Shown piece by piece: positions 3,940 to 51,016 of a DNA stretch of 64,000 nucleotides (the first letter of the stretch is position 1; each line of letters begins with the position of its first letter). Position numbers and translations under genes: made by a program. The DNA comes from Cyclobacteriaceae bacterium (GTDB taxonomy: Bacteria > Bacteroidota > Bacteroidia > Cytophagales > Cyclobacteriaceae): NCBI GenBank assembly GCA_020436085.1, contig JAGQYM010000010.1, positions 1-64,000 of the forward strand, given 5' to 3'. The notes beneath the pieces are model-generated. The model was given only the letters and a program-made list of their open reading frames with translations. It was not told where the DNA came from and did no database searches.

Positions 3940-3982
3940 GCTTTACTATATGTCGGGTCTGTCAATTTACAACAATTTTTTC

Positions 3983-4770: not shown

Positions 4771-4795
4771 TCCTCCTTGTCAAAAGTAGCGAGTT

Positions 4796-7102
4796 ATGAA
4801 AGAATATTTCAAGCATGATCCATGGAAAGTAATTGAGGAAGGTTTCGATCCTCATATGAACAAAGTTGCCGAAAGCATCTTTAGTATAGGCAACGGTCGC
4901 ATGGGGCAACGTGCGAACTTTGAAGAGCAATATTCAGGAGAAACCCTTCCGGGTAGCTATGTAGCGGGCGTATATTATCCGGATAAAACGCGTGTGGGGT
5001 GGTGGAAGAATGGGTATCCAGAGTATTTCGCGAAAGTGCTCAACGCTCCAAACTGGATCAATTTGCACATCGCTATTGAAGGTCAACCCCTTGACCTTGC
5101 AAAATGTAAAGTCGAATCTTTCAGGCGCGAACTTGACATGAAAACGGGAATACTGACGCGTCTGTATATCGCATCGCTTCCTGATGGAAAAAGACTTGAA
5201 GTTAATGCATCGAGATTTTGCAGCATGGCCGATGATGAGATTGGAGCAATTAAGTTCTCATTAACGCCCCTGAATTTCTCTGGGAGCATCACCGTAGTGT
5301 CTGGGATCGATGCTGATGTTGTCAATATGGACTCCAACTATGACGAGAAGTTTTGGAATGAGGTCTACAAAGATGCCTCCAGGGATCAGGCTGTAGTGAC
5401 TGCGGAAACCAAAAAGACTCTCTTTCACGTCTGCTGCGGGTCTACAGTTTCTGTTGTTCAGAAAGGCAAGGAAGTATCACTAAAACAATCGTCTGTTACA
5501 AAGGAGAAGTTTGCGGCCTTTCAGTTTGAACTGCCGATTAATGAAGGAGAGTCTACTGTTATTTATAAATACGCGGCAATACTGTCATCCGAGAATCATA
5601 AAAAAGAAGAGTTGGTTGCTCAGTGCCGGACTCAGTTGGATTACGCGCGGCAGCGAGGATATGAAAAACTAAGAGATGCGCATGTAAAAATCTGGACAGA
5701 TAAATGGAACGAGTGTGATATTACTATTGAGGGTGATGTTGGAGCACAGCAAGGAATACGCTTTAATATTTTCCAACTTAGTCAGACTTATACAGGAAAA
5801 GATCAGAGGTTGAACATCGGTCCAAAAGGTTTTACAGGGGAGAAGTATGGTGGGAGCACCTATTGGGACACAGAGGCTTATTGCTTGCCATTTTATTTAG
5901 GTACAGCTGATCAAAAGGTTGCGCGTAACCTGTTGGTGTATCGTCACAAACATTTGCAAAGGGCGATAGAAAACGCAGGCAAGCTTGGCTTTACAAACGG
6001 GGCGGCACTGTATCCGATGGTGACTATGAATGGAGAAGAGTGTCACAACGAATGGGAGATTACGTTCGAGGAGATTCATCGCAACGGAGCGATTGCCTAT
6101 GCCATTTTTGACTACATCAGATATACCGGTGATAATGACTATTTGGTTGAGTATGGGTTAGAAGTCCTGATTGGTATCTCTAGGTTTTGGGCACAACGGG
6201 TCAATTGGTCTGATGACAAATCGCGCTATGTGATGCTAGGAGTTACAGGTCCCAATGAGTATGAAAATAACGTAAACAACAATTGGTACACCAACCTGAT
6301 TGCTAAATGGACTCTTTCCTACACACTCGAATCGATTGAATATGTTAGAGGGAAAGATGAGTCAGTATTTAACAGGCTTATACAGTCTTTAAAGTTTGAA
6401 GTGCAAGAGGAGACGAAGAAATGGAAAGACATTGGTGATAAAATGTATTTTCCAGAAGACAAGCACCGAGGCATATTCCTTCAGCAGGATGGATTTCTAG
6501 ACAAAGTCATTAAGCCAGTTTCACAATTGGGCAAGGGCGATAGACCTTTGAATCAGAAGTGGTCGTGGGATCGTATTCTGCGCTCATGCTACATAAAGCA
6601 AGCAGACGTGCTACAAGGATTGTACTTCTTTGAAGATCAATTTGATCAGGACTCAATCAAGCGCAACTTCGATTTTTACGAGCCGATTACTGTTCACGAG
6701 TCTTCACTTTCACCTTGTGTGCATTCAATTCTGGCCGCATCTCTAGGCTATCAGGATAAAGCTTATGAAATGTATGTGAGAACAGCCCGGTTGGATTTGG
6801 ACGATTATAACAATGACACTGAGGATGGGTGCCATATTACCAGTATGGCTGGCACTTGGCTGAGTATCACCAAGGGTTTTGGCGGGCTTCGCATTGTCGA
6901 TGATCAGATTCATCTTCACCCATTTATTCCGGGTCAATGGCAGAGCTATTCATTCAAACTTGAGTTCAGAGGCCAGGTGATCAAAGTGAATGTTTCACAG
7001 GCGAGTGTTGACGTCACGTTAGAGGAAGGGAAGGAGCTAGGGATCGTGATTTATGGACAACCATTTGTTCTTACTGACAAGGTTTCATCCCCAATCAGGT
7101 AG
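4796..7102 (+). CDS. GH65 maltose phosphorylase (cytoplasmic)
   Basis: A 768-residue GH65 enzyme without signal peptide. N-terminal beta-sandwich (about 1-270), linker helices, then an alpha/alpha barrel (about 320-690) and a C-terminal beta domain. The general acid is Glu488 in GVTGPNEYENNVNNNWYTN. The phosphate-binding region is intact as TEDGCHITSMAGTWLSITKG, so this copy is a phosphorylase and not a hydrolase. Maltose plus phosphate gives glucose plus beta-glucose 1-phosphate, which the PgmB enzyme just upstream converts to glucose 6-phosphate; together they save one ATP per maltose. Other disaccharide specificities in GH65 (trehalose, kojibiose, nigerose) cannot be excluded from the sequence, but length and context favour maltose. 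A second, secreted GH65 lies at 23112-25130. Confidence 0.9.
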   Translation: MKEYFKHDPWKVIEEGFDPHMNKVAESIFSIGNGRMGQRANFEEQYSGETLPGSYVAGVYYPDKTRVGWWKNGYPEYFAKVLNAPNWINLHIAIEGQPLDLAKCKVESFRRELDMKTGILTRLYIASLPDGKRLEVNASRFCSMADDEIGAIKFSLTPLNFSGSITVVSGIDADVVNMDSNYDEKFWNEVYKDASRDQAVVTAETKKTLFHVCCGSTVSVVQKGKEVSLKQSSVTKEKFAAFQFELPINEGESTVIYKYAAILSSENHKKEELVAQCRTQLDYARQRGYEKLRDAHVKIWTDKWNECDITIEGDVGAQQGIRFNIFQLSQTYTGKDQRLNIGPKGFTGEKYGGSTYWDTEAYCLPFYLGTADQKVARNLLVYRHKHLQRAIENAGKLGFTNGAALYPMVTMNGEECHNEWEITFEEIHRNGAIAYAIFDYIRYTGDNDYLVEYGLEVLIGISRFWAQRVNWSDDKSRYVMLGVTGPNEYENNVNNNWYTNLIAKWTLSYTLESIEYVRGKDESVFNRLIQSLKFEVQEETKKWKDIGDKMYFPEDKHRGIFLQQDGFLDKVIKPVSQLGKGDRPLNQKWSWDRILRSCYIKQADVLQGLYFFEDQFDQDSIKRNFDFYEPITVHESSLSPCVHSILAASLGYQDKAYEMYVRTARLDLDDYNNDTEDGCHITSMAGTWLSITKGFGGLRIVDDQIHLHPFIPGQWQSYSFKLEFRGQVIKVNVSQASVDVTLEEGKELGIVIYGQPFVLTDKVSSPIR

Positions 7103-7260
7103 GTGCTCGATTGTAAAATTTTAGTGCCGCTGAGCCTAAAATTATTGGGCTGATTACGGTGTACTTTTAAGTCATTTTATACCCAGTTTGTCGCGTTCGC
7201 GAAGTGATATTTTGACCGCTGCTGGATAACTCCTGAACTCAAAAAAAAACCGCCTCAGTT

Positions 7261-7272
7261 GCAAACGTTTGC
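7261..7272. promoter_or_regulatory. LacI-type operator upstream of the susC operon
   Basis: GCAAACGTTTGC, a perfect palindrome identical to the site at 2871, lies 159 bases before the SusC ATG. It sits inside a larger imperfect inverted repeat, AAACCGC (7247-7253) with GCGGTTT (7271-7277). The surrounding gap 7103-7431 (329 bases) otherwise holds A/T tracts and the candidate promoter listed separately; I see no gene in it. Confidence 0.7.
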
Positions 7273-7312
7273 GGTTTCGATTCCGTAAAAAAACCTCATT
7301 TTTTGTGGAATT

Positions 7313-7348
7313 TTGCATTCAAAAAAGGCTTTAAACTGCATATCTTTA
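7313..7348 (+). promoter_or_regulatory. Candidate Bacteroidota promoter for susC
   Basis: TATCTTTA at 7341-7348 resembles the Bacteroidota -7 box TAnnTTTG (last base differs), and a TTG at 7313-7315 could serve as the -33 element. The spacing is somewhat longer than usual. It would give a leader of roughly 75-80 bases before the SusC ATG and would place the operator at 7261 upstream of the -33 element. Weak evidence from pattern only. Confidence 0.3.
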
Positions 7349-7431
7349 GTCTAGGTTAATTCTGAGTTATGTTAACCGCATGACTGCTCAGAGCGAAAGA
7401 TTAGCCGCCCATTTAAACTTAACAACACAAT

Positions 7432-10400
7432 ATGACACACTTTTATCTGTTAATTCGCAGGTACCTGGTTGTCTTCCTAATGCTTGGTTGCGCGACTGCT
7501 TTTGCGCAAAGATCGATTAGCGGCCGCGTCACTGCGGCAGAGGACGGCAGCGGGATACCAGGCGTAAACATTCTGGAGAAAGGTACTACGAATGGTACCG
7601 CCTCAGATTTCGATGGAAATTTCAGGCTTAACGTTGGCGACAATGCCACCCTGGTTTTTTCATTCATTGGGTATAAGACGATGGAAGTTCCGGTCGGAGC
7701 TCAGTCTACGCTCAATGTTAGTATGGAGCTTGACGTTACCGCTCTCTCTGAAGTCGTTGTAATTGGTTACGGCCAGACGACAGTGAAAGACGCCACGGGT
7801 GCTGTTGCCGCTGTTACCTCTAAGGATTTCAACGGAGGTGTAATCGCATCTCCTGAGCAGCTAATTCAAGGCAAGACCGCAGGTGTTCAAATAACCTCCG
7901 CGAGTGGCGCTCCTGGAGCAGGCGTTCAGTTGAGAATACGAGGAACGAATTCGATTCGTTCCAACAATAACCCACTATTTGTGGTTGACGGAGTGCCTCT
8001 AAGCGGGGGTACACAACCTGCTGCACCTGATCTTGGAGTTGGTTCTTCCGCAGATACTAATCCATTGAACTTTTTGAATCCGAACGATATCGAGAGCATT
8101 AGCATATTAAAGGATGCTTCTGCAACCGCCATCTATGGTTCAAGAGGTGCAAATGGAGTTGTGATTATTACTACTAAGAGTGGTAAGGGAAACAAAGGCA
8201 CATTTGATTTTGCTTCGAGTGTCAGCGTTTCTTCGCCACTTAAGAAGTATGACTTGTTGGAGAGAGATCAGTTCCTTAGTGCTGTTGCTCAATACGGAGG
8301 GGATCCAGTAGCACAGGACGGAGGAGCGAGTACAGATTGGCAGGACTTTGTTCTAAGGAATTCAGTTTCTCATAAACAGAACCTTTCTTATTCAAGGGGT
8401 TTTGAAACTGCCTCTATTAGGGCGGCAATAGGCTATGAAGATCAGCAAGGAATTCTTCAGAATAGCTATATGAAAAGATTTACCACCAGAGTAAATGGCT
8501 CCAAATCTATGTTGGACGACAAACTGAATTTAGACTTGTCTGCGACTTATTCGAACGTGAGAAGAGAAGATCCACCTACCAGTGGAAGCGCAGGATTTCA
8601 GGGGGACATACTTGGTGCTGCATATGCCGCGAATCCGACATGGCCGACAGACCCACTCTTTAATCCCGGTGGACTGAGAAGTCCTGCGAACATGCTGGAG
8701 TTTTTCGAGAGTAAGGGAACAACGAACCGGATCTTGACTAACTTATCTGCGGACTACAAGCTCAATGATGCCCTTACGGCCAAGATTACCTATGGGTTGG
8801 ATCTTTCTCGTGGAGATAGATCAACATATGTCACAGGAAGGGCCATCAATTTTGGAAATGGCGTTCAAGGATCGGGAGCTGGCCAATTGAATCAGAATAA
8901 TACAACATCCAACCTCCTTGAAGCGACACTCAATTATACCAAGGAATTGGGGAATGTTGACATTGAGGTGGTTGGAGGATATTCCGTTCAAAGTTTTAGA
9001 AACCAATACTATTGGGCTGAAGGCCGTGGGTTTGCTGACTACACTGACTTTGGAAGTATGGACTACCAGATGAGAACTACTTTTGATGCGGCTGACGCTA
9101 TCGCTTCTGGCGTTGCCGGAGACGGCCGTTATAACAACTGGGGTTTTTCCAGAGACCTACGTGCAAATAACATTACTATTCCATCTGGCGCAGCTGGTTT
9201 TGTGAGTGGAGTAGATTTTGATAGTGGCGAGTTTTATCGCGCTTTCCTTAGAAGGAATGCTGGGGTTATTCTTTCGGGAATTGGTGCTAATTTTTACGAT
9301 CAAACGGACTATTTGCAGTCTTATTTTGCAAGAGCGAACTTCACGATTAACGATAAACTATTAGTCACAGCAACACTAAGAGCGGACGGTTCTTCAAAGT
9401 TTGGTAAAGACAACCGGTACGGGGTATTCCCTTCTGGGGCCATAGCATATAAATTACACGAGGAAGACTTTGTTCCGGATGCATTTAGCAACTTAAAAAT
9501 CAGGGCCGGATACGGAGTTGTTGGTAACCAGGATGGCTTGGGATATGGAGAGTTTATTAGAAGAGATAGGTTCGCTGACGTAGACGTAGGGGATGCACGC
9601 GAGATTACAATTCCGGGAGTCTCAAGTTCTGGGTCAGTAAATCCAGGGTTAAAATGGGAATCAACTACTCAGATTAGCACAGGAATTGATTTTGGATTCA
9701 ATAATGATAGAATTACCGGTAGTTTTGACTATTACGTAAAGAACACCACAGATCTTTTGCTAAGACGAAACGCTGCACAACCAGCAGTAGCTGATCAAAT
9801 ATTTGACAATTTGGATGCAGTTGTTGAGAACAAAGGATGGGAGTTATCCCTAAGTTATGGCGTGATAGAAAGTGCTGACGCGTCTTTGACCTTGGGTGGA
9901 AATATTTCCAATAATAAAAACGTACTTAAAGATTTCGGTGGCCTGCTTGATGCAGGTACTATTAGAGGACAAGGATTGACAGGTGCATATGCTCAACGAT
10001 TGGCAGGTGGCCAGCCTTTGTTTTCATTCTTTTTACGTGAATTTGGTGGTTTTGATGCAAATGGTCAACCAATTGGTGACGAGCAAGTTTTTGTTGGTAA
10101 AACCGCGTTGCCTACATGGAACATGGGATTTTCAATTAATGCTACTTATAAAAAGTTTGACTTTAACATGTATGTTTCAGGACAATTCGGTCAGTATGTT
10201 TACAACAACACTCGAAATGCCTTGTTTACAGCTGGGTCAATCAATAACGCTAGAAATGTTACACCGGATGTGTTAACAAATGGAGAGGCTGGTTCGGCTG
10301 AAGCATCTGTTTCAACCCGATTCCTCGAAAAAGGTGACTTTATTAGAGGTCAAAACTTAACGCTAGGTTATAACATACCTGTTAGTGGTACATTTAAGAA

Positions 10401-10584
10401 CCTGAGAGTGAGTTTGAATGCACAGAACTTGTTCCTGATAACTGATTACTCCGGACTCGATCCAGAGGTAAGCAGTAATCCATCTGACAACGATCTGCTT
10501 AACCGACTGCCAACGGCAGGTATTGACTGGGCGGCATATCCAAGGCCAAGAACATTTACGCTTGGTATTAACGCCTCGTTTTAA
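7432..10584 (+). CDS. SusC-like TonB-dependent outer-membrane receptor
   Basis: A 1,050-residue SusC/RagA-family transporter. A signal peptide ends near ATAFAQ (residues about 1-25), followed by a CarboxypepD_reg-like domain (about 28-100, SGRVTAAEDGSGIPGVN), a plug domain with the SusC signature SISILKDASATAIYGSRGAN, and a C-terminal 22-strand-type beta-barrel ending in FTLGINASF with terminal Phe. The family imports oligosaccharides across the outer membrane as a complex with the SusD lipoprotein encoded 16 bases downstream, powered by TonB. No extra N-terminal STN signalling domain is present, so control is likely through the upstream LacI operator and not through an anti-sigma pathway (inference). 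The cargo is probably an alpha-glucan or alpha-gluco-oligosaccharide, judged from the neighbours only. Confidence 0.96.
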   Translation: MTHFYLLIRRYLVVFLMLGCATAFAQRSISGRVTAAEDGSGIPGVNILEKGTTNGTASDFDGNFRLNVGDNATLVFSFIGYKTMEVPVGAQSTLNVSMELDVTALSEVVVIGYGQTTVKDATGAVAAVTSKDFNGGVIASPEQLIQGKTAGVQITSASGAPGAGVQLRIRGTNSIRSNNNPLFVVDGVPLSGGTQPAAPDLGVGSSADTNPLNFLNPNDIESISILKDASATAIYGSRGANGVVIITTKSGKGNKGTFDFASSVSVSSPLKKYDLLERDQFLSAVAQYGGDPVAQDGGASTDWQDFVLRNSVSHKQNLSYSRGFETASIRAAIGYEDQQGILQNSYMKRFTTRVNGSKSMLDDKLNLDLSATYSNVRREDPPTSGSAGFQGDILGAAYAANPTWPTDPLFNPGGLRSPANMLEFFESKGTTNRILTNLSADYKLNDALTAKITYGLDLSRGDRSTYVTGRAINFGNGVQGSGAGQLNQNNTTSNLLEATLNYTKELGNVDIEVVGGYSVQSFRNQYYWAEGRGFADYTDFGSMDYQMRTTFDAADAIASGVAGDGRYNNWGFSRDLRANNITIPSGAAGFVSGVDFDSGEFYRAFLRRNAGVILSGIGANFYDQTDYLQSYFARANFTINDKLLVTATLRADGSSKFGKDNRYGVFPSGAIAYKLHEEDFVPDAFSNLKIRAGYGVVGNQDGLGYGEFIRRDRFADVDVGDAREITIPGVSSSGSVNPGLKWESTTQISTGIDFGFNNDRITGSFDYYVKNTTDLLLRRNAAQPAVADQIFDNLDAVVENKGWELSLSYGVIESADASLTLGGNISNNKNVLKDFGGLLDAGTIRGQGLTGAYAQRLAGGQPLFSFFLREFGGFDANGQPIGDEQVFVGKTALPTWNMGFSINATYKKFDFNMYVSGQFGQYVYNNTRNALFTAGSINNARNVTPDVLTNGEAGSAEASVSTRFLEKGDFIRGQNLTLGYNIPVSGTFKNLRVSLNAQNLFLITDYSGLDPEVSSNPSDNDLLNRLPTAGIDWAAYPRPRTFTLGINASF

Positions 10585-10600
10585 TTTAGATTTGAGCAAA

Positions 10601-12181
10601 ATGATAACAATAAATAAAATGAGAAATAGAAGATTGATATCAGCCGTGTTGCTGGCCTTCGTTGTGTCTTCTTGTAGTTTGGACATTGATGAAACTGACT
10701 CACTAATCACAGAGGGATCCTCAGATGTGTTTAATGGGGTGACAGATCCCGGATCTGCGATTACGAATCTCTATAACAATATTTCTAGCCAAGCTGGGGA
10801 TCAGGCTAATCTGTTTGCCCTACAAGAAGTGACGACTGACGAGTTGATGGTGTTGACACGCGGAACAGACTGGGGGGACAACGGGATTTGGAGAACCCTC
10901 CACCAACATACTATGGGCCCCAACCATGCTTACATTAACCAAGTTTGGAATGACAAGAATAGCGCAGTGTTGAGAGCTACTGAAATAATAGATCCTCTTA
11001 CTGATGCTACTGACGAAGAAATTGCACAGGCAAAGTTTGTCAGAGCATATAATATGTGGTTGGTGATGGACTTTTGGGGTCAGGTTCCTTTCAGGAACCC
11101 TGTAGACGGACCCGAAGTAACTCCTAGTGTGTTTACGAGAGCGGAAGCTTACGACTTTATTGTTCAGGATTTAACTGATGCGATTGCTGATCTCCCCTCA
11201 GGGAGTTCTACATCAGACACAAAAACCACTGCAGTGAAGGCCACAGCGAAGTTCCTTCTTGCAAAAATTAAGTTGCAGGCCAATGTGTATAAGGGTGACT
11301 ACGGAGCCGGTGACCTTCAGGATGTTATTGAGTTGGTTGATGAGATTGAGACAGGAGGTTATGCGATCGTAGGCGGTGGTTACTTTGATATATTTGTTGG
11401 CCCTGAATTTACAAATACGGATGTTATTTGGAACGTGCCAGCTGGTGTTGGTAATAGGATGTGGAATGGTTTGCACTATAATCAACCAGCGAAACCAGGA
11501 GAAGGAAATGATGGTGGTGGTTGGAATGGATTTACAACCTTAGCTGAATTCTATGACAAGTTTGAGGGTGATCCAAATGAAAACGTTTTAGGTGGTGATC
11601 AGGAGGAAAGACGTGGATTTACCCAGACTTTGGCATCTACCAATGAAGACAACTTTGGATTTGGATTTGGCTTCCAGATAGGCCAAATGTTTAGCTTCAG
11701 TGGAGGATCCGCAAAAGCGCTAACTGACAGAGGTGGTGCACCGTTGGTATTTACACGAGAAGTCCCTGGGCTAGTTGGAAATAATGAAAGAACGGGTATC
11801 CGAGTTTTAAAATGGTCTCCAGCCAATGGGGCTTTTACAGAAGGTCTAGTTATGGCTCGTTTTGCTGATGCACATTTGATGCGAGCAGAGGCACGACTTA
11901 GACTTGGTAATACTACGCAAGCACTAGAGGATGTTAACTTTCTAAGACGTAAGAGAGCGAATACCCCTGATTTGACTTCGATAAGTGAATCAGCTTTGCT
12001 TGACGAGAGAGGTCGGGAATTATATCTCGAGGGCTGGAGAAGGCACGACTTGATTCGCTTTGGTGTTTTCAAGGACGCATGGCAGTTCAAGGAAGCTGGT
12101 GATGGTCACACTGACTTGTTCCCAATTCCTGCAAGTGCGTTACTTTCTAATCCGAATCTAGTTCAAAACGAAGGTTACTAG
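10601..12181 (+). CDS. SusD/RagB-like surface glycan-binding lipoprotein
   Basis: A 526-residue SusD-family protein. I start it at the ATG at 10601 (MITINKMRNRRLISAVLLAF); an ATG at 10619 is equally possible, while an upstream extension would run back into susC and lacks signal-peptide character. The lipobox VVSSC puts the lipidated Cys near residue 30. The TPR-like helical region and the typical ending, GRELYLEGWRRHDLIRFG followed by LFPIPASALLSNPNLVQNEGY, are diagnostic; the last phrase reads like the canonical 'L-PIP-SE-NPNL-QN-GY' terminus. It forms the lid of the SusC transporter and binds glycan at the cell surface. A strong terminator follows the stop codon. Confidence 0.96.
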   Translation: MITINKMRNRRLISAVLLAFVVSSCSLDIDETDSLITEGSSDVFNGVTDPGSAITNLYNNISSQAGDQANLFALQEVTTDELMVLTRGTDWGDNGIWRTLHQHTMGPNHAYINQVWNDKNSAVLRATEIIDPLTDATDEEIAQAKFVRAYNMWLVMDFWGQVPFRNPVDGPEVTPSVFTRAEAYDFIVQDLTDAIADLPSGSSTSDTKTTAVKATAKFLLAKIKLQANVYKGDYGAGDLQDVIELVDEIETGGYAIVGGGYFDIFVGPEFTNTDVIWNVPAGVGNRMWNGLHYNQPAKPGEGNDGGGWNGFTTLAEFYDKFEGDPNENVLGGDQEERRGFTQTLASTNEDNFGFGFGFQIGQMFSFSGGSAKALTDRGGAPLVFTREVPGLVGNNERTGIRVLKWSPANGAFTEGLVMARFADAHLMRAEARLRLGNTTQALEDVNFLRRKRANTPDLTSISESALLDERGRELYLEGWRRHDLIRFGVFKDAWQFKEAGDGHTDLFPIPASALLSNPNLVQNEGY

Positions 12182-12229: not shown

Positions 12230-12318
12230 ATATATCATGCTTTAATTTGTTGAACGAAAATTCTGATCGATCTACTGTTACGTTGTCTGTGTAAATGGGG
12301 AGTGAGGCGGTCATGTGT

Positions 12319-39497: not shown

Positions 39498-41288
39498 ATG
39501 ATAAGATTTGCCCCATTTGCTATCTTACTTTTTGGTGCAGCCTGCACTTTGCAAATGGATTCCGAGTCATCCCAAGCCCAAAAGAAGCCTCAAAAAATGG
39601 TCATCTACCAGATGATGACGCGGTTGTTTGGCAATCAGAAACAGACCAACAAAACTTACGGTACAATCGAAGAAAATGGCGTTGGAAAATTTGATGATGT
39701 CACTGACAAAGCCCTGCAGTCTTTGAAGGAACTTGGGATAACCCATGTTTGGTACACGGGCGTAATTGAACATGCCGTACTCACAGACTATACCGCGTTT
39801 GGTATTCCACTTGACGATGCTGATGTGGTGAAAGGTAGGGCTGGCTCACCATATGCGATTAAAGATTACTATGACGTAAATCCAGATCTGGCAAAGAATG
39901 TTGAGCAGCGAATGGGGGAGTTTGAATCACTGGTGAACAGAACCCACAGCAACGATTTGAAAGTCATTATCGATTTTGTGCCAAATCACGTGGCGCGTGC
40001 CTATCGTTCAGATAAGAAACCGCCAGAGGTAAAAGATCTCGGTGAGGGAGACGATAATACGAAAGCTTTTTTGGTAAGTAACAATTTCTACTATCTGCCT
40101 GGGGAATCTTTTCAAGTGCCCGCTGACTACAATTCATTGGGACCCGACAATAGCTTCCCGACCAAGGATGGAAAGTTTGATGAGACGCCTGCAAAAGTGA
40201 CAGGCAACAATCAGTTCACCGCATCGCCTGGAGTGAATGAGTGGTTCGAGACGGTGAAGTTGAATTATGGTGTTGATGTGGTAAACAATAATGCCACTCA
40301 TTTTGATCCGATACCTGACACATGGATCAAGATGCGCGACATACTGAAATACTGGGTAGAAAAAGATGTAGATGGGTTTCGTTGTGATATGGCAGAGATG
40401 GTGCCGGTGGAATTTTGGCATTGGGCAATACCACAGGTGAAGCAAGGAAACAAAGATGTGATTTTCATCGCTGAGATTTACAACCCGTCTGCTTATCGCG
40501 ATTACATCGTTGAAGGAGGTTTTGACTTTTTATATGACAAGGTTCAACTGTACGATACATTGCGACTTCTGGTCAATGGAAAAAGTGCAACAACAGATAT
40601 TCCCAAAATTCAGGCGAGCTTAGATGGCATCAATTCCAAAATGCTTCACTTTCTCGAGAATCATGATGAGCAGCGAATAGCCTCACCAAATTTCGCAAGC
40701 GATCCCTGGAAAGCAATTCCAGCAATGCTGATAAGTGCTGTTGTGGATCGTGGTCCTGTGATGATCTATTTTGGTCAGGAGGTGGGGGAGCCCGGTGCCG
40801 GAGTTGAAGGATTTCAGGGAGATGATGGGCGCACAACAATCTTTGACTATTGGGGTGTTCCGGAGCATCAAAAATGGATGAATGGCGGTCTCTTTGATGG
40901 AGGGCAATTGAGTGACGATCAAAAAAAATTAAGAGACACCTATTCAAAACTTCTCAATCTAGCACAAAGTAACGAAGCAGTCGCATCGGGAGAAACAATC
41001 GATCTTACTCAGCACAACGTCTCACAGGGAAATGTAAATGCAAGTATCTACTCGTGTCTGCGAAGTACGCCAAATGAAGTAATATTAGTGGTGGCAGGAT
41101 TCAATCCCGATGAGCGGTCGGTTGTGCTAGAGATTCCGCAGACGGAAATGGATAGGGTGGGACTGCCCTCTGGTGATTTAAATGCCCGTGCAATATTTGG
41201 AAGGAATGGGGTTCAGAAAATAGTTGACAATAAGCTCAACATCAATTTGCCGCCATATGGGGCAATTGTCTTTAAATTAGAAGGATGA
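39498..41288 (+). CDS. GH13 alpha-amylase-family lipoprotein
   Basis: A 596-residue GH13 enzyme with a lipoprotein signal (MIRFAPFAILLFGAACTLQM, lipobox FGAAC). The catalytic triad is complete: Asp297 in VDGFRCDMAEM, Glu326 in FIAEIYNP and Asp390 in FLENHDEQR. The first conserved region appears as IDFVPNHV. It would cleave alpha-1,4 bonds of imported or surface-bound starch fragments in the periplasm or outer membrane, delivering maltose and maltodextrins. It is the first gene of the glucan operon and overlaps glgE by ATGA. An operator lies just upstream. Confidence 0.92.
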   Translation: MIRFAPFAILLFGAACTLQMDSESSQAQKKPQKMVIYQMMTRLFGNQKQTNKTYGTIEENGVGKFDDVTDKALQSLKELGITHVWYTGVIEHAVLTDYTAFGIPLDDADVVKGRAGSPYAIKDYYDVNPDLAKNVEQRMGEFESLVNRTHSNDLKVIIDFVPNHVARAYRSDKKPPEVKDLGEGDDNTKAFLVSNNFYYLPGESFQVPADYNSLGPDNSFPTKDGKFDETPAKVTGNNQFTASPGVNEWFETVKLNYGVDVVNNNATHFDPIPDTWIKMRDILKYWVEKDVDGFRCDMAEMVPVEFWHWAIPQVKQGNKDVIFIAEIYNPSAYRDYIVEGGFDFLYDKVQLYDTLRLLVNGKSATTDIPKIQASLDGINSKMLHFLENHDEQRIASPNFASDPWKAIPAMLISAVVDRGPVMIYFGQEVGEPGAGVEGFQGDDGRTTIFDYWGVPEHQKWMNGGLFDGGQLSDDQKKLRDTYSKLLNLAQSNEAVASGETIDLTQHNVSQGNVNASIYSCLRSTPNEVILVVAGFNPDERSVVLEIPQTEMDRVGLPSGDLNARAIFGRNGVQKIVDNKLNINLPPYGAIVFKLEG

Positions 41289-43237
41289 CAAAGAATCAGG
41301 GCCAGTCAAGGGTCATTATTGAAAACGTACAGCCACAGGTTGATGGCGGTTTATACCCAGCCAAAAGAACGGTTGGTGAAATGTTGGAAGTTTCCGCGGA
41401 CATATTCGCTGATGGCCATGATCATATCAGAGCCGATGTTCTTTACAAGCAGGAAGGTGAAAAAGAGTGGACCCGGAAGGGAATGACGCACCGAGGGAAT
41501 GATACATATACATGTGCCATTCAGCTTGACAAGCAAGTCAACTATCTTTTTACTGTCGAAGCCTGGATCGATCACTTCGAGACTTGGTACGATGGCATAA
41601 TCAAAAAGATAAATGCAAATATCGATGTGACCCTGGAGTTGAGGGAGGGCGCAAACTACCTGAAAGAATTATCAGGAGGCAGCAACAAAGACCTTGAGTC
41701 GATTGCTACACTTTTTGAAGACAAGAAGAAATCAAAGGAAAGTATTAGTAAGGTTACGAGTTCTTCCTTTTCAGACTTAGTTCATAAGTATCCACTTCGT
41801 CATTTTGAAACAAGATACCCAACAGAGTTTGTTATAAAAGTTGAGTCAAGCAGAACCTTATTCACAACATGGTACGAACTGTTTCCTCGTTCTGCCTCTT
41901 CGACAGGTAAGCACGGAACATTTCAGGATGTTATTAAACTCTTGCCCAGAATAGAGTCGATGGGTTTCGATGTTTTGTATTTGCCTCCAATACATCCGAT
42001 AGGAAAAGTTAATAGAAAGGGAGGCAACAACAGCACAACGTCAAAGCCGGGTGAGCCGGGATCACCTTGGGCCATTGGTAGCGATGAAGGAGGACATAAA
42101 GCTGTTCACCCTGAGCTTGGCACAATGGCTGACTACAAAAAATTGATCAGCGAGGCGAAGGCGCGGGGCATTGACATTGCCTTGGATCTTGCATTCCAGT
42201 GTGCCCCCGATCATCCATATGTCAAAGAGCACCCCGAGTGGTTTCGTCAGCGCCCTGATGGGTCAATTCAATACGCGGAAAATCCACCAAAGAAATACCA
42301 GGATATTTATCCCTTCGACTTTGAGTGCAAAGACTGGAAAGGGCTATGGGAAGAGTTGAAATCCGTCACCTTGTTTTGGATTGAAAATGGCGTAACCATC
42401 TTTAGGGTCGATAATCCACACACCAAGCCAATCCCCTTTTGGGAGTGGATGATCACAGAAATTCATAAGGTCCATCCCGATATCATATTTCTTGCGGAAG
42501 CATTTACACGACCTAAGGTTATGTCTTCACTTGCTAAGGTCGGGTTCAATCAATCCTATACTTACTTCACATGGCGTGTGGGTAAGGGCGAGTTGATTGA
42601 ATACATGAATGAGTTAGTGCACGGTTCATCAAGAAATTACTTCAGACCTAACTTCTGGCCAAACACTCCGGACATACTTCCGTTCCATCTACAACATCAG
42701 TCAGAGAATATTTTCATTTTAAGACTGGCATTGGCTGCTACCATGTCATCCAACTATGGCATCTACGGGCCTCCATATGAAATGTGTGATAACGATCCGG
42801 TGCCCGGAAGAGAAGAGTATAACAATTCAGAAAAGTATGAGGTGAAAAAATATGACTGGAAGCGGACCAATCGTATGACCGATATTATTACAATTCTGAA
42901 TAAAGCCAGAAAAGAACATCGCGCACTTCAGTCAACATGGAATATCCATTTTTGCGCAATGGAGAATCCAAACTTGATAGCCTACATCAAGTGTACACCT
43001 GACCTTTCCGATATCATCCTTACAGTAGTTAACCTCGATCCTCACAATAAGCATCAAGGCTATGTGCAGTTACCGAAAGCATTGTTGGGTCTTGGTGATT
43101 TTATTAATGTGAAGTTAAATGACCTCGTCACTGGGGAGTGGTTTACCTGGACTCAGGAATGGAACTACGTGGAGCTGGAGCCGAACAGAATGCCGTTTCA
43201 TTTGTTTGAACTAAAAATCCACGAATCAAACATGTAG
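41285..43237 (+). CDS. glgE: GlgE: alpha-1,4-glucan:maltose-1-phosphate maltosyltransferase
   Basis: A 650-residue GH13_3 protein. N-terminal beta domain (about 1-110), a helical insert, then the barrel beginning with TTWYELFPRSASSTGKHGTF, the GlgE signature. Catalytic Asp376 in FRVDNPHTKPIPFWEW and Glu405 in IIFLAEAFTRPK have the 29-residue spacing of known GlgE enzymes. EKYEVKKYDWKR near the end is also typical. It transfers maltose from maltose 1-phosphate to glucan ends, in the cytoplasm. The next gene supplies the maltokinase. The stop abuts the next ATG directly (TAG then ATG). Function assignment is strong. Confidence 0.95.
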   Translation: MTKNQGQSRVIIENVQPQVDGGLYPAKRTVGEMLEVSADIFADGHDHIRADVLYKQEGEKEWTRKGMTHRGNDTYTCAIQLDKQVNYLFTVEAWIDHFETWYDGIIKKINANIDVTLELREGANYLKELSGGSNKDLESIATLFEDKKKSKESISKVTSSSFSDLVHKYPLRHFETRYPTEFVIKVESSRTLFTTWYELFPRSASSTGKHGTFQDVIKLLPRIESMGFDVLYLPPIHPIGKVNRKGGNNSTTSKPGEPGSPWAIGSDEGGHKAVHPELGTMADYKKLISEAKARGIDIALDLAFQCAPDHPYVKEHPEWFRQRPDGSIQYAENPPKKYQDIYPFDFECKDWKGLWEELKSVTLFWIENGVTIFRVDNPHTKPIPFWEWMITEIHKVHPDIIFLAEAFTRPKVMSSLAKVGFNQSYTYFTWRVGKGELIEYMNELVHGSSRNYFRPNFWPNTPDILPFHLQHQSENIFILRLALAATMSSNYGIYGPPYEMCDNDPVPGREEYNNSEKYEVKKYDWKRTNRMTDIITILNKARKEHRALQSTWNIHFCAMENPNLIAYIKCTPDLSDIILTVVNLDPHNKHQGYVQLPKALLGLGDFINVKLNDLVTGEWFTWTQEWNYVELEPNRMPFHLFELKIHESNM

Positions 43238-46200
43238 ATGGCTGGCAACGGTAAACATACGGAAGCACTCTGGTTCAAAGACGCAATTATCTATGAGTTG
43301 TCGGTCAGGGCCTTTTGCGATAGCGATGGAGATGGAGTCGGTGACTTCAATGGCCTTGTTCAGAAACTCGATTATCTTGAAGATCTTGGCGTCAACACAA
43401 TTTGGCTGCTCCCTTTCTATCCTTCACCACTAAAGGATGACGGATATGATGTTGCCGATCATTGCGATGTCCATCAGCAATATGGTTCGCTTTCCGATTT
43501 CAAGACTTTCTTAAAGGAGGCGCACAAGAAAGGTATTAAAGTCATAACCGAGTTGATCCTTAACCACACCTCCGATCAGCATCCTTGGTTTAAGCGGGCA
43601 AGGAAAGCAAAGCCTGGGTCACGCTATCGTGAGTTTTATGTGTGGAGTGACACTCCGGACAAATACAACGAGGCTCGCTTGTTGATTCAGGATGAAGAAG
43701 CATCCAACTGGACCTGGGACAAAGAAGGCAAAGCATATTATTGGCATCGTTTCTATAGGCACCAACCGGAGCTCAACTTTGATAACCCGGAGGTGCAAAT
43801 GGAGATGATCAAAGTGATTGACTTCTGGATGAAGCTGGGAGTTGACGGCTTCAGATTGCCTTCGGTACCTTTTCTTTTTGAAGAGGAGGGAACCAACTGC
43901 GAAAACCTGCCTCAAACACATGACTTTTTAAAGAAGATTCGGTCGCACATAGACAAGAATTATAAACACCGAATACTAATCGCAGAAGCCAACCTCTGGC
44001 CGGAAGATGCTGCAGCCTATTTCGGTGATGGCAAAGAGTGCCACATGAATTTTAACTATCCGTTGATGCCACGGTTGTTTCTGGGGTTGAGAACAGAAGA
44101 TAGTTATCCAATCATCGACATACTTGATCAGACTCCGAAGACGCCCCCTAACAGTCAGTGGGCACTGTTCCTTCGCAACCACGATGAGCTTGGGCTGGAG
44201 ATGGTGACTGAAGAGGAGAAGGACTATTTATTGAAAGCCTACGCCACCGACACAAATTCGAAATTTAATATTGGCATAAGAAGGCGATTGGCTCCACTGC
44301 TAAATAATGACAGGCGGAAAATCGAATTGCTGTATACAATACTCTTCTCATTACCTGGAACTCCTGTGATCTATTACGGTGATGAGTTTGGGATGGGAGA
44401 CAATGTTTATCTCGGAGGGAGATCGGGTGTGCGTACGCCTATGCAGTGGAATATGAATCTTAATGCTGGTTTCTCCACGGCCAACCCTCAGCAACTTTAT
44501 CTGCCACTCATTACCGATCCGGTGTATCGACACCAGTCCATTAACGTGGCTACCCAGGACGAAAACCCTTCTTCTCTACTCTGGTGGATGAGGCATGTTA
44601 TTGCTATGCGCAATCGACTCGTGGTGTTTGGAAGAGGAGACATGCAGTTTATCGACAGCTCGAATAACAAAATATTGTGCTTCATCAGAACGTATGAATC
44701 TCAGCGGATCATTCTTGTGGCTAACCTGTCCCAGTTTTCTCAGGTTACTACATTGAACCTTACGGACTACAAAGATTGCGAAGTGACCGAGGTCTTCAGT
44801 CAAAATAGATTTTTGAACGTAGGTGATGGTCACTACAGTCTTACACTTGGTCCATACGGTTACTATTGGTTGCAGCTCGACACTAGCGATCAAAAAGAAA
44901 AATCGGATGCAAACGGAGAGTTACCACTATTTTCTGCCGACCAATCATGGGAAAAAGTATTCACCAATTACAACGAGAAGCGGCAGTTTGAGCGAAGGAT
45001 ACTTCCGGGCTTCATGAAGAAATGCCGCTGGTTTGCAGGCAAAGCCAAACCAATTGCAAAGATCGGATTACAAAAAACGATTCCAGTAAAAGTAGGTAAA
45101 GCAACTCATTACCTCTCACTCATCGAAGTTCATTACGTTCAGCGGATGCCTGAACTTTATTTTTTGCCGCTCACCTTCGTGCCTTCCGAAAGTATTGTTG
45201 ATAAGGTTGAGTACAACGCACAAAGTGTGGTATGTCGCGCTCAATTGAATGGTGTGCAGGGCTTCGTATTGGATAGCAGCTACGATAAAGAATTTAGAGA
45301 CTACCTGCTGACAAGCATGGACAAAAAGCAGCGGCTGAAATTTGAAGACGGTGTGCTGGAGTTCAACTCAAGTCTGTTCAACAAAATTGTGATCGAGGGA
45401 GCGATTGACTCTAAGGTGTTGAAAGCCGATCAAAGTAATACTGCGATTATTTACAACGATCAGTACTTTTTCAAATTCTATCGAAAGCTGGAGCGCGAGA
45501 TTAATCCTGACATGGAGATCGTTCGGTTCCTTTCGGAGAATACTAGTTTTGAAAATAGTCCGAAGTATGGTGGAAGTATTGAATTTGTTGACAGCGAGAG
45601 CAAGGTGATCGTGTTGGGATTGTTGCAGAACAAAGTTGAGAATCAGGGGGAGGCTTGGGGCATGGCGATTGACTCGGTGGGTCGCTTTTTTGAACGAGTT
45701 ATAACCAAGGCCAAAAAAGAAAAGCTACCGAAGCTGGTAAACAAACCTAGTATCACGTTTGAAGAAGCACCAGAAATCATACAAGAGTTTATCGGCAGAG
45801 GGTTTTATGAACGTGTGGTAAGGCTGGGACAAAGGACTGCAGAGATGCATCTGGCGCTGGCTTCCGATAAAACAAATCCGGCATTCGCGCCTGAGCAATT
45901 TACTGCCAACTATCAGCGGTCACTGTATTCATCTTTACGAAAGTTGGTCAGAGATCGTTTTAACCTGCTTGAGAATAGTCTGGACAAACTGGACGACACT
46001 ACACGAGCACTGGCGCAGGCAGTCCTGGAAATGGAGAACGATGTATTGGATTGCTTCAAAGAAGTTTATGAAATAAAAATTGATGCGATCAAGACCCGCA
46101 TACATGGAGACTATCATCTGGGGCAGGTTTTGTTTACTGGAAATGATTTTGTCATTATCGACTTCGAAGGTGAGCCTGGATTTTCATTCAGCGAACGGAG

Positions 46201-46582
46201 ATTAAGAAAGAACCCGTTTAAAGATGTAGCTGGTATGATGCGTTCATTTCACTATGCAGCGTTTGGTAAGATATTGCTCAATGAAAACTACAGGGACAAG
46301 GACATGACCTTCCTTGAAGCCTGGGCTGAGCAATGGCAACATTATGTCAGCAGATTTTATGTGGGCGCTTACATGCAAAGAATGGGAATGGGTACGGAGC
46401 TGTCCTATCAGAGTGATGTGCTGATCCGAACGTTCCTTATTGAAAAAGCGATTTACGAACTGGGCTATGAACTCAATGGCAGACCCGATTGGGTAATTAT
46501 TCCTTTGCGTGGGATATATTACCACATGAACAGATATTTCTCCGAGCGAAAAGGGAAAAAGAAAAAAGTGTCAGACGACTAG
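43238..46582 (+). CDS. TreS-maltokinase fusion with a lost TreS nucleophile
   Basis: A 1,114-residue fusion. Residues about 10-555 are a trehalose-synthase-type GH13_16 domain (IIYELSVRAFCDSDGDGVGD); residues about 570-1100 are a maltokinase (Pep2-type) domain with the catalytic loop IHGDYHLGQVL and the metal-binding VIIDFEGEP. In the TreS half the acid/base Glu250 (ILIAEANLWPE) and Asp316 (FLRNHDELGLE) are present. The nucleophile position, Asp in GFRLDAVPYL of active TreS, reads GFRLPSVPFL: Pro208, codon CCT at 43859-43861, and the 42-residue spacing to Glu250 fits the family. The kinase half should still make maltose 1-phosphate from maltose and ATP for GlgE, while maltose/trehalose interconversion is probably lost. 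Confidence 0.93.
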   Translation: MAGNGKHTEALWFKDAIIYELSVRAFCDSDGDGVGDFNGLVQKLDYLEDLGVNTIWLLPFYPSPLKDDGYDVADHCDVHQQYGSLSDFKTFLKEAHKKGIKVITELILNHTSDQHPWFKRARKAKPGSRYREFYVWSDTPDKYNEARLLIQDEEASNWTWDKEGKAYYWHRFYRHQPELNFDNPEVQMEMIKVIDFWMKLGVDGFRLPSVPFLFEEEGTNCENLPQTHDFLKKIRSHIDKNYKHRILIAEANLWPEDAAAYFGDGKECHMNFNYPLMPRLFLGLRTEDSYPIIDILDQTPKTPPNSQWALFLRNHDELGLEMVTEEEKDYLLKAYATDTNSKFNIGIRRRLAPLLNNDRRKIELLYTILFSLPGTPVIYYGDEFGMGDNVYLGGRSGVRTPMQWNMNLNAGFSTANPQQLYLPLITDPVYRHQSINVATQDENPSSLLWWMRHVIAMRNRLVVFGRGDMQFIDSSNNKILCFIRTYESQRIILVANLSQFSQVTTLNLTDYKDCEVTEVFSQNRFLNVGDGHYSLTLGPYGYYWLQLDTSDQKEKSDANGELPLFSADQSWEKVFTNYNEKRQFERRILPGFMKKCRWFAGKAKPIAKIGLQKTIPVKVGKATHYLSLIEVHYVQRMPELYFLPLTFVPSESIVDKVEYNAQSVVCRAQLNGVQGFVLDSSYDKEFRDYLLTSMDKKQRLKFEDGVLEFNSSLFNKIVIEGAIDSKVLKADQSNTAIIYNDQYFFKFYRKLEREINPDMEIVRFLSENTSFENSPKYGGSIEFVDSESKVIVLGLLQNKVENQGEAWGMAIDSVGRFFERVITKAKKEKLPKLVNKPSITFEEAPEIIQEFIGRGFYERVVRLGQRTAEMHLALASDKTNPAFAPEQFTANYQRSLYSSLRKLVRDRFNLLENSLDKLDDTTRALAQAVLEMENDVLDCFKEVYEIKIDAIKTRIHGDYHLGQVLFTGNDFVIIDFEGEPGFSFSERRLRKNPFKDVAGMMRSFHYAAFGKILLNENYRDKDMTFLEAWAEQWQHYVSRFYVGAYMQRMGMGTELSYQSDVLIRTFLIEKAIYELGYELNGRPDWVIIPLRGIYYHMNRYFSERKGKKKKVSDD

Positions 46583-46594
46583 ACCTACCTTACC

Positions 46595-48607: not shown

Positions 48608-51016
48608 ATGAGTAAGTTTGTTTGTATACATGGGCATTTTTATCAACCCCCCAGGGAGAATGCCTGGTTGGAAGTAATCGAGGTACAGGATTCAGCGCAT
48701 CCATATCACGACTGGAACGAGAGAATATCGGCTGAGTGCTATGCGCCTAATGCCGCATCACGGATTCTGGAAAATGGAATCATTAAGGATATTGTCAACA
48801 ACTATTCCCGCATAAGTTTCAACTTCGGGCCCACTTTACTTTCGTGGATGGAAGAGTATGACCGCGAGACATACGAATCAATTCTTGAAGCCGACAAGGA
48901 AAGTGAGAAAATTTTTGGAGGTCATGGTAGTGCGATGGCTCAGGTTTACAATCACCTGATCATGCCGCTTGCCACACGTGAGGACAAAGAGACGCAGATT
49001 GTGTGGGGCATTCGCGACTTCAGTTATCGGTTTGGGCGTGAACCAGAAGGAATATGGCTGGCAGAGACTGCCGTGGATACCGAAACGCTCGAACTGCTCG
49101 CAGAAAATGACATCAAATTTACCGTGCTTGCACCTCGCCAGGCAAAGGCGTTCAAAAAGATTGGAGACACGGACTGGATCGAGACGAGTAAACAAGGCAT
49201 TGACACGAAACGACATTACGTAGCTTTGCTACCTTCCGGTCGATCCATCATCTTGTTTTTCTATGACGGAGACATCGCACAAAGTGTTGCCTTCAACGGA
49301 CTGCTGAATGACGGTCAAAAATTCGCAGGGGCTCTGGTCAATTCTTTTGATCAAAGAAATGAATCGCAACTTGTTCATATCGCCACAGACGGAGAAACGT
49401 ACGGACATCATCACAAGCATGGTGACATGGCGCTGGCGTTTTGCCTCGACTATTTGGAGCAGCTGCCGGATGTGGAGATAACCAACTACGCTCAATATGC
49501 AGCACTACACCAGCCGCAGCATGAAGTGCAGATTCATGAAAACAGTTCGTGGAGTTGTGTGCATGGTGTTGAGCGCTGGAGAAATGACTGTGGCTGTAAC
49601 TCCGGTGGAAGACCCGGCTGGAATCAGAAATGGCGTAAGCCGTTAAGAGAAACGTTGGACTGGCTACGCGATCAAGCTGCAGAATCTTTTAAGAAGAACG
49701 GAGCGGAGATATTGAAAGACCCGCAAAAGGCCAGAAATGACTACATCAATGTGATCCTCAACCGAGACGATGAAACAATAAGAAAGTTTCTGAAGGATCA
49801 CTGCATCAAAACGGTCAGTCAGAACAAAGTGATGCGGACAATGGAGCTTCAAAGGAACGCTCTTTTGATGTACACAAGTTGTGGTTGGTTTTTCGATGAG
49901 ATATCAGGTATTGAGACGGTGCAGATTCTGCAATACGCCTGTCGGGCAATTCAGCTGATGCAGCAGACGGCAGGTAAGGATCTGGAAGATGAGTTTATTA
50001 CTAGGTTAGAGCAAATTCCAAGTAACATTGCGTTCCTTCAAAATGGAGGCAACGTATATCGTAAATATGTGGTCCCTTCAAAAACCAACCTCCAACGCGT
50101 AGGTATGCACTATGCGGTTGCGTCTTTATTTGAAGATGACCCTGAGAACTTTCCAATATTCAATTATACCACCACTAACGATTTTTTTGTTCGTAAAGAG
50201 GCTGGAGAGCAACGTCTTGTGCTTGGAATCACGAAAGTAAAGTCTATTGTAACCAGTTCCGAAAAACGATTTTCGTTTGCCGTTGTTTACATGGGTAAGC
50301 ACAACATCATTGGAAACATCTCTCTGGATATGGAGGATGATAAGTTCAATGAGATGCAGGAGGGAGTATTATCCGCTTTTAACGAGGGAAGATTAGGTGA
50401 CGTGATTGGACTTATGCAGACATACTTTGGTCCTGACAAATACACCTTGTGGCAGTTGTTTAAAGATGAAAAGAGAAAGGTGTTGGATATGATTACCAAC
50501 CAAAGCATGAGCGAGCTGGAAACCTCCCTCAGAAGGGTTTACAACCGCGATTACCCCTTAGTGAATGCTTTGCGTAATAATGATGTACCAGTTCCCCGCG
50601 CATACACCACCACGTTTGAGTACATCCTAAATGCCGACTTGGTCAACTGCTTTCAGTCTGAGAGGATTAGCGCCAAGGAGGTAGATAGAATCGTCAATGA
50701 ACTTGAAAAATGGAATTTGATGATCGAAGATCCTGGTAAGCTATCACGATTGGCAGGTGAAAGTATTTTCAGGGAGTTAAGAAGAATAAAGGGTGAGCGA
50801 GGCAACGTAAAACGATTGGAGCGGCTGAATAGATTGTTCCCTTTGTTAAAGAAATTCAAACTTGATCCGATCTTGTATCAGAGCCAGAATCTCTACTTCG
50901 AGATATCGAAAGAGAATCAAATGGATCCGAATGACAAACCAGATTGGCAGAAGCAATTCCGCATTCTGGGAGAAAACATGGGTGTTAAGGTTCAGTCTCC
51001 TGTAAAAGCAGAATAG
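48608..51016 (+). CDS. GH57-family glycoside hydrolase, DUF3536-type
   Basis: An 802-residue GH57 protein. Region 1 is CIHGHFYQPPRENAWLE; the probable nucleophile is Glu153 in EGIWLAETAVDTETLELL; the probable acid is Asp261 in IATDGETYGHHHKHGD. The C-terminal half (about 340-800) is helical and matches the DUF3536 extension. GH57 enzymes act on alpha-glucans as amylases, 4-alpha-glucanotransferases, branching enzymes or amylopullulanases; the subtype here is not fixed by motifs I can see. No signal peptide, so cytoplasmic, with a role in turnover or shaping of the glycogen made by GlgE/GlgB. Last gene of the operon; the opposite-strand ROK gene ends 2 bases away. Confidence 0.9.
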   Translation: MSKFVCIHGHFYQPPRENAWLEVIEVQDSAHPYHDWNERISAECYAPNAASRILENGIIKDIVNNYSRISFNFGPTLLSWMEEYDRETYESILEADKESEKIFGGHGSAMAQVYNHLIMPLATREDKETQIVWGIRDFSYRFGREPEGIWLAETAVDTETLELLAENDIKFTVLAPRQAKAFKKIGDTDWIETSKQGIDTKRHYVALLPSGRSIILFFYDGDIAQSVAFNGLLNDGQKFAGALVNSFDQRNESQLVHIATDGETYGHHHKHGDMALAFCLDYLEQLPDVEITNYAQYAALHQPQHEVQIHENSSWSCVHGVERWRNDCGCNSGGRPGWNQKWRKPLRETLDWLRDQAAESFKKNGAEILKDPQKARNDYINVILNRDDETIRKFLKDHCIKTVSQNKVMRTMELQRNALLMYTSCGWFFDEISGIETVQILQYACRAIQLMQQTAGKDLEDEFITRLEQIPSNIAFLQNGGNVYRKYVVPSKTNLQRVGMHYAVASLFEDDPENFPIFNYTTTNDFFVRKEAGEQRLVLGITKVKSIVTSSEKRFSFAVVYMGKHNIIGNISLDMEDDKFNEMQEGVLSAFNEGRLGDVIGLMQTYFGPDKYTLWQLFKDEKRKVLDMITNQSMSELETSLRRVYNRDYPLVNALRNNDVPVPRAYTTTFEYILNADLVNCFQSERISAKEVDRIVNELEKWNLMIEDPGKLSRLAGESIFRELRRIKGERGNVKRLERLNRLFPLLKKFKLDPILYQSQNLYFEISKENQMDPNDKPDWQKQFRILGENMGVKVQSPVKAE

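Follow-up and report, generated by a model that had tools for sequence, protein, structure and literature searches.

A TreS-maltokinase fusion lacking the TreS catalytic nucleophile in the GlgE cluster of environmental Bacteroidota: a probable maltokinase on a retained TreS scaffold

The TreS-maltokinase fusion and codon 208

The DNA considered here (the window) is a stretch of 64,000 nucleotides from a Cyclobacteriaceae bacterium (GenBank assembly GCA_020436085.1, contig JAGQYM010000010.1, positions 1 to 64,000 of the forward strand), and the gene in question encodes a fusion of trehalose synthase (TreS) and maltokinase (Mak) situated directly downstream of glgE. The N-terminal half of the predicted protein scored 817.7 bits on the NCBIfam TreS model TIGR02456 (cut-off 678.35) and thus belongs to the TreS (GH13_16) family, while the C-terminal half scored 457.2 bits on the NCBIfam maltokinase model TIGR02457 (cut-off 375.05), which indicates membership of that family. 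Identity between the TreS domain and the trehalose synthase structure 5x7u was 57% over 544 columns. The features of the gene are as follows, "clade" referring to the group of 78 related fusions described in the next section.

43238..46582, + strand: TreS-maltokinase fusion with nucleophile-less TreS domain, 1,114 residues (NCBIfam TIGR02456 and TIGR02457)
43859..43861, + strand: codon 208, CCT (Pro), at the catalytic nucleophile position; Asp in PDB TreS alignments and in 30/30 Asp-type fusions
43985..43987, + strand: Glu250 (GAA), general acid/base position, kept; Glu in 76/78 of the clade, Asp in 2
44183..44185, + strand: Asp316 (GAT), transition-state stabilizer position, kept; 78/78 of the clade
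44192..44194, + strand: Gly319, second diagnostic change; Thr in 30/30 Asp-type fusions, Gly or Ala in 78/78 of the clade
45008..46516, + strand: maltokinase domain, residues ~591-1093 (TIGR02457), with the HGDYHLGQ loop and DFEG kept

The stretch around residue 208 in the open reading frame at 43238-46582 reads LGVDGFRLPSVPFLFEEEGTNCENLPQTH. Asp occupies the nucleophile position in each of the three PDB trehalose synthases aligned (5x7u, 5h2t and 4lxf), so that the Asp-Glu-Asp catalytic triad is incomplete in the window protein, with Pro208 in place of the first Asp and with Glu250 and Asp316 present. The original prediction, made from the window sequence, had reported Pro encoded by CCT at this position, intact Glu250 and Asp316, a spacing of 42 residues between positions 208 and 250 and an intact maltokinase loop HGDYHLGQVL, all of which agree with the present results, the loop starting at residue 956. 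The interval that it gave for GFRLPSVPFL, 43841-43870, encodes residues 202-211, whereas the motif itself lies at 43847-43876, a trivial offset of six bases in an otherwise correct description. The Mg/ATP residues of the kinase half, Lys746, Asp958, Gln963 and Asp975, are all present in the window protein and occur in 78/78, 77/78, 77/78 and 78/78 members of the clade, respectively. They were matched to Lys149, Gln310 and Asp322 of PMC11046441 on the grounds of motif and spacing, and these kept motifs suggest that the Mak half would be active.

Distribution of the Asp-less state and condition of the TreS domain

Relatives of the fusion were collected from whole genomes, named genome contigs and extracted regions, and the tree, counts and rates were derived from full-length rows only, which numbered 140 before and 108 after removal of duplicates, partial copies (e.g., L036) having been dropped. 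Alignment of residue 208 across TreS-Pep2 fusions of Bacteroidota, a check proposed with the original prediction, revealed absence of Asp from 78 of the 108 distinct fusions (30 with Pro, 24 with Ala, 16 with Ser and 8 with Gly) and its presence in the other 30. Thus, the fact shared across the clade is the absence of the acid, Pro being only one of four replacements. Because all 78 distinct clade fusions lack Asp and four different residues take its place, neither chance nor a read error accounts for the change, as the original prediction had surmised in the case of the latter, and explanations based on a read error, an assembly artefact or an oddity of a single genome were rejected.

The Asp-less rows occupied one side of a branch with Shimodaira-Hasegawa-like approximate likelihood ratio support of 100 in the tree of all 108 sequences and formed one clade with 99/95 support in a smaller, more careful tree that included 16 of the 78 together with Asp-bearing outgroups. 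Asp, Glu, Asp and Thr319 were all present in 92/92 further relatives outside the clade (60 + 26 + 6), among them six actinobacterial sequences that likewise carry Asp. The 83 fusion-length matches listed in a search of the order, all of which were read, comprised 72 with Asp and 11 without, the latter all in the clade, and the 39 genomes read of 91 with a match in a search of the phylum comprised 35 with Asp and 4 without, all 4 again in the clade. Since the Asp-less rows form one clade among Asp-bearing outgroups, the phylogeny indicates that the nucleophile was lost once, in an early event that predates the whole clade, with no reversal seen among the rows compared. The clade is a group of environmental Bacteroidota that includes Chryseolinea serpens, C. 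lacunae, Ohtaekwangia koreensis, Dawidia soli, Parachryseolinea silvisoli, Chryseosolibacter, Pseudochryseolinea flava, a Fulvivirga metagenome-assembled genome (MAG) and many other MAGs. Its deepest branch is formed by L124, L125 and L126 (Fulvivirga/Flammeovirgaceae).

Parsimony places about 20 changes of residue 208 in the clade (21 over all five letters), all of them among Pro, Ala, Ser and Gly, and the neutral chance of remaining within this set was no more than 0.5 per change in a rough single-step codon calculation on the parsimony count. Thus, position 208 seems to be held small and acid-free rather than drifting. Around it, most residues of the -1 (glucose) site are retained: Asp67, His110, Arg206, His315, Asp316 and Arg395 in 78/78 members and Glu250 in 76/78 (Asp in L116 and L122), while residue 70 is Tyr in 40 and Phe in 38. 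In contrast, only three of nine residues of the +1 and gate set are kept, Ala209 being replaced by Ser or Asn in 77/78, Tyr212 by Phe in 71/78, Thr319 by Gly or Ala in 78/78 and Glu317 by Ser in 3/78. In the TreS of Deinococcus radiodurans, Tyr213, Glu320 and Glu324 were reported to be essential on the basis of Ala substitutions alone (PMC4257617); the window equivalents, assigned by motif and spacing, are Phe212, which is changed, and Glu317 and Glu321, which are kept. In L124, L125 and L126, the motif NHDE is NHDS, so that the equivalent of D. radiodurans Glu320 is also gone.

The small, acid-free position 208 and the retention of most of the glucose pocket and of the acid/base residue are the grounds for supposing that the TreS domain may have become a conserved site for sugar sensing or for catalysis without a nucleophile, by which the fused maltokinase is controlled or fed, a conversion that is possible but doubtful. 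The sensing form of this proposal, which is the main rival to the interpretation favored below, holds that the empty -1 site would bind a glucosyl ligand, for which the candidates are maltose, trehalose, glucose and a phosphate ester, and that closure of the domain would signal to Mak. Consistent with a sensor are the seven of eight pocket residues besides the nucleophile that are retained by 97% or more of the clade members and the confinement of changes at residue 208 to P/A/S/G. However, this retention was not above the conserved background of the barrel (159/249; hypergeometric P = 0.15), so that special conservation of the pocket was not obtained as statistical proof, and with the +1 and gate residues eroded and the ligand putative, a sensor is unlikely. 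Engineered nucleophile mutants of glycosidases take external nucleophiles, and the TreS domain might by analogy support another chemistry, such as inverting hydrolysis or phosphorolysis with water or phosphate in the space of the missing Asp and Glu250 as acid. The retention of Glu250 and Asp316 and the exclusively small, non-acidic residues at 208 would suit such chemistry, while the occurrence of Asp at position 250 in two members, the loosened +1 site and the presence in the window of a GH65 enzyme that already offers maltose phosphorolysis make it very unlikely.

The idea that trehalose synthase activity persists in the TreS domain, with the nucleophile supplied by another acid, takes some encouragement from GH13 amylases with an aberrant triad that were reported to be active (PMC5347038) and from the fact that an AlphaFold model of the fusion fails to place the active-site loops. 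The model had a mean predicted local distance difference test score (pLDDT) of 79.4 and a predicted template modeling score of 0.58, with pLDDT below 50 at residues 64-66, 148-153, 337-349 and 384-400, and it served for the fold only, being too weak for judging alternative acids. Nevertheless, residues 204-214 are free of acids in all 78 Asp-less rows, which led to rejection of an adjacent substitute acid of the kind found in BmaN1. Together with the altered +1 residues and the lack of OtsA from 25/27 and of TreY from 27/27 genomes that contain this copy only, this result leaves continued synthase activity the least probable of the alternatives.

A further possibility is that the TreS half is a useless passenger that has not yet been lost, held in place since Mak needs a folded N-terminal neighbor. 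The ratio of TreS to Mak divergence rises from 0.44 among Asp-type fusions to 0.80 among Asp-less ones, which points to relative relaxation, and the TreS:Mak ratio in the comparison of substitution rates rises from 0.39 to 0.79. Absolute constraint on the nucleophile-less domain is very strong, however, the median ratio of nonsynonymous to synonymous substitution rates (dN/dS) being 0.02 in 16 usable pairs compared with 0.05 in 40 Asp-type pairs (pairs limited to dS between 0.2 and 2), and the loss predates the whole clade; decay is thus highly improbable. Judged from these rates, the TreS half is a predicted pseudoenzyme under strong purifying selection rather than a decaying one, and such conservation of an apparently dead domain implies a continuing role.

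The GlgE cluster, trehalose genes and sources of maltose

The fusion gene is flanked by the following genes.

39498..41288, + strand: predicted lipoprotein alpha-amylase (GH13), 596 residues, with an N-terminal GAAC lipobox
41285..43237, + strand: GlgE maltosyltransferase (PF11896, PF21702), the sole PF11896 match in the genome
46595..48562, + strand: GlgB branching enzyme (NF003811, 976 bits, cut-off 741)
48608..51016, + strand: GH57/DUF3536 enzyme, likened to the DUF3536 GH57 of Pontibacter

Clustering of a maltokinase gene with those for GlgE and GlgB (window 41285-48562) identifies a GlgE pathway, and the DUF3536 GH57 protein of a Pontibacter GlgE cluster was reported to act as an alpha-1,4-glucanotransferase (PMC11206854).

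Gene contents were compared among 51 genomes chosen for carrying a fusion, of which 27 contained the Asp-less type only, 10 (isolates, as named records) both types and 14 the Asp type only. GlgE occurred once per genome in 51/51. An amylase homologue was located within 2 kb of glgE, as identified by its N-domain, in 36 of the 37 genomes with an Asp-less fusion, compared with 0 of the 14 Asp-only genomes, and glgE itself adjoined the Asp-less fusion in 36/37, the two being on different contigs in G034; both adjacencies were read by eye from coordinates. Each of the ten isolates with both types holds its Asp-bearing fusion separately, away from glgE, which was not seen in the 15-17 kb around that fusion and instead lies beside the Asp-less one. 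Neighborhoods were also surveyed in 26 of 71 named loci and 13 others; labels for OtsA, TreY and TreZ were applied only in a separate survey, to 31 Asp-type and 2 Asp-less loci. At least one of these three was close by in 12/31 Asp-type loci, and the amylase in none of the 31.

The amylase was not found in 13/71 named loci, 10 of which had about 4.1 kb or less of upstream sequence, while L112, L125 and L126 had room upstream and lacked it. A second, SusG-like GH13 protein occurred in 11/26 named loci, upstream of glgE in 10 of them and in L160, and was retained in L125 and L126. A simple lipobox pattern was matched by 17 of 24 amylase orthologues, and a lipobox was noted by eye in the window copy; export of the amylase is therefore likely. 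Apparent absence of GlgE from L074 and L132 was rejected, as tblastn found GlgE in both, and the absence from L197 was likewise only apparent. In L116 (MAG SKYG22), one of the two loci with Asp at position 250, the amylase gene is directly 5' of TreS-Mak and no GlgE match was found in the locus, so that the fusion was possibly kept without GlgE.

The distribution of trehalose genes differed markedly between groups, OtsA being detected in 2/27 Asp-less-only, 10/10 dual and 14/14 Asp-only genomes and TreY in 0/27, 10/10 and 14/14, respectively. Since the ten isolates keep an Asp-type fusion, OtsA and TreY, uncoupling from trehalose looks complete only in genomes that have none of the three. The two exceptions with OtsA, G030 and G268, have an Asp-less protein as their sole TreS-Mak, and in these trehalose can probably be made, though not be passed to GlgE via TreS. 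Short GT5 (GlgA-type, PF08323) frames of about 270-320 residues were present in 51/51 genomes; in view of this length, a PF08323 match was rejected as proof of a normal glycogen synthase and was not scored as complete GlgA. A review mentions that a GT5 fragment is conserved in Bacteroidetes (PMC11046441).

The window genome is 98.9% complete in 191 contigs. A look-up of otsA and treY elsewhere in this genome, which had accompanied the original prediction as a proposed check, gave no match to either (TreZ was not searched for), and a second, active TreS was rejected, as the other two TIGR02456 matches fell below the cut-off of 678 bits, at 255 and 239 bits. A trehalose feed of GlgE through an active TreS together with OtsA or TreY/TreZ was thus not found, the sole TreS-family protein over the cut-off being the nucleophile-less one. 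There was no GT3 match and GT5 was present only as a 292-residue frame, so that, of the glycogen polymerases searched for in this genome, GlgE alone is present at full length.

A likely maltose-use locus was noted at window 2896-12181, about 35 kb upstream of the fusion, where a LacI regulator gene is followed by these features.

4126..4770, + strand: beta-phosphoglucomutase (TIGR01990, 261 bits, cut-off 189.4)
4796..7102, + strand: GH65 enzyme, closest solved structure maltose phosphorylase 1h54
7432..12181, + strand: SusC/SusD-type outer-membrane glycan importer pair, beside GH65

Taken together, the LacI regulator, beta-phosphoglucomutase, GH65 protein near 1h54 and SusC/SusD pair suggest that maltose reaches the cytosol in this organism. 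A GH31 glycosidase at 386-2788 (- strand) adjoins the locus. Beside SusC/SusD, two adjacent proteins of about 1,110 residues (12295-18953) contain many FG-GAP repeats and an ASPIC/UnbV domain, and a second GH65-like protein at 23112-25130 scored 1078.8 bits on the NCBIfam kojibiose hydrolase model (cut-off 800).

A maltokinase on a retained TreS scaffold, and comparison with known systems

The interpretation that probably accounts best for these findings is that the isomerase is dead and that the fusion, with its TreS half retained as a scaffold, acts as a maltokinase to feed GlgE with maltose from alpha-glucan. TreS works by double displacement, for which Asp is needed to form the glucosyl-enzyme intermediate, as described in PMC4257617. 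Trehalose synthesis should cease once the nucleophile is gone and the +1 side has changed, and loss of isomerase activity is very probable from the GH13 mechanism. The domain would form no glucosyl-enzyme intermediate and would neither convert trehalose to maltose nor drain maltose to trehalose. External alpha-glucan would be converted to maltose by the exported amylases encoded beside glgE, in this genome perhaps with the SusCD/GH65 locus as a further source of maltose. Mak would then phosphorylate maltose to maltose 1-phosphate, from which GlgE, GlgB and the GH57 enzyme would build glycogen. The loss would suit a maltose-fed cell, since maltose would be lost to trehalose and glucose if the protein also contained an active TreS. 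Such a rewired pathway is probable; maltose as its feed is what the placement of the amylase suggests. The scaffold role, which we infer from the conservation of the domain and by analogy with the TreS:Pep2 complex, has a precedent in mycobacteria, where the TreS beta-sandwich is described as the docking site of Pep2, near the Pep2 ATP site (PMC6509496).

The original prediction had suggested that the fusion may be a pure maltokinase uncoupled from trehalose and fed by amylase-derived maltose. Nucleophile loss and uncoupling are well supported by the single clade-wide loss, the lack of OtsA and TreY matches in the window genome and the amylase beside glgE, and that amylase also favors the proposed feed, which we infer rather than observe. 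The label "pure maltokinase", on the other hand, omits the strong conservation of the dead domain.

Several observations weigh against this interpretation. TreS did not speed up Pep2 in Mycobacterium smegmatis, and the enhancement in M. tuberculosis was modest, as reported in PMC6509496. Moreover, the mycobacterial TreS-Pep2 contacts are not kept, Arg320 and Pro511 of the M. tuberculosis protein being aligned with Thr286 and Asn477, and the docking residues were rejected as proof of a scaffold. Because these contacts are not kept and no speed-up was seen in M. smegmatis, the scaffold role draws mainly on conservation. Some GH13 amylases whose triad is aberrant are reported to be active, although in these a neighboring Asp may take the place of the nucleophile (PMC5347038), and residues 204-214 carry no acid in the present clade. 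Amylase homologues are located away from glgE in 9/14 Asp-only genomes, so that only the location of the amylase is special and its status as a gene unique to the clade was rejected. As the amylases look exported, maltose would need to be imported first, and no maltose transporter was identified in the cluster, importers not having been searched for in the genomes. In the window's genus, 8 of the 35 further genomes gave no fusion at E 1e-100. The gene absences rest on draft genomes; OtsA is present in G030 and G268, the former without the amylase; and a GT3 glycogen synthase match in 20/27 single-copy genomes (in pieces in G031) means that GlgE is not the sole polymerase in those 20.

Descriptions of the GlgE pathway have it convert trehalose to glycogen, usually with TreS as the entry enzyme. 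The clade points to a natural form of the pathway in which a single ancient mutation disabled this enzyme while the other genes of the cluster persisted, and in which starch-derived maltose may replace the trehalose that normally supplies it. If true, bacteria would here offer a clear example of a metabolic enzyme retained in a fusion as a pseudoenzyme. Since TIGR02456 ("maltose alpha-D-glucosyltransferase") is passed easily, annotation would credit trehalose synthesis to organisms that are probably unable to perform it in this way. The Asp-bearing and Asp-less paralogues of cultured species (such as C. serpens and O. koreensis) allow a direct test of a non-catalytic role of TreS for maltokinase, which the mycobacterial complex has not settled. 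In the literature searched, which included little subscription content, neither a nucleophile-less TreS nor a maltose-fed GlgE cluster was reported.

Non-catalytic GH13 proteins that serve as partner subunits include the SLC3 heavy chains (4F2hc and rBAT) and the plant isoamylase ISA2. The present TreS domain resembles these in having a GH13 fold without a working active site and differs in that its active site is largely preserved in this clade; to our knowledge, there is no comparable non-catalytic case in TreS. Substitution of the nucleophile throughout a group is shared with the BmaN1-type GH13 alpha-amylases, but BmaN1 has an Asp one residue on and is reported as active (PMC5347038), whereas no acid is near in the present group. 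In the mycobacterial TreS:Pep2 complex (5jy7), TreS has the same fold (Foldseek match 5jy7_H, TM-score 0.88 by target length, 52% identity) and likewise serves as a platform for the kinase; mycobacterial TreS, in contrast, is catalytic and a separate chain, and two of its contacts are not kept here. A source of maltose 1-phosphate for GlgE that is independent of TreS is already known in mycobacterial GlgC-GlgM (PMC11046441, PMC7935935), in which GlgM uses ADP-glucose and glucose 1-phosphate (PMC7935935) as opposed to the maltose and ATP proposed here. The closest counterparts are the TreS-Mak fusions of Estrella lausannensis and Pseudomonas aeruginosa, which have the same domain order and length, pass both NCBIfam models and are encoded beside glgE and glgB. 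The Estrella protein was reported to be active in both halves (PMC7935935), whereas in the fusions described here Asp is replaced by Pro, Ala, Ser or Gly throughout the clade and the +1 subsite is changed.

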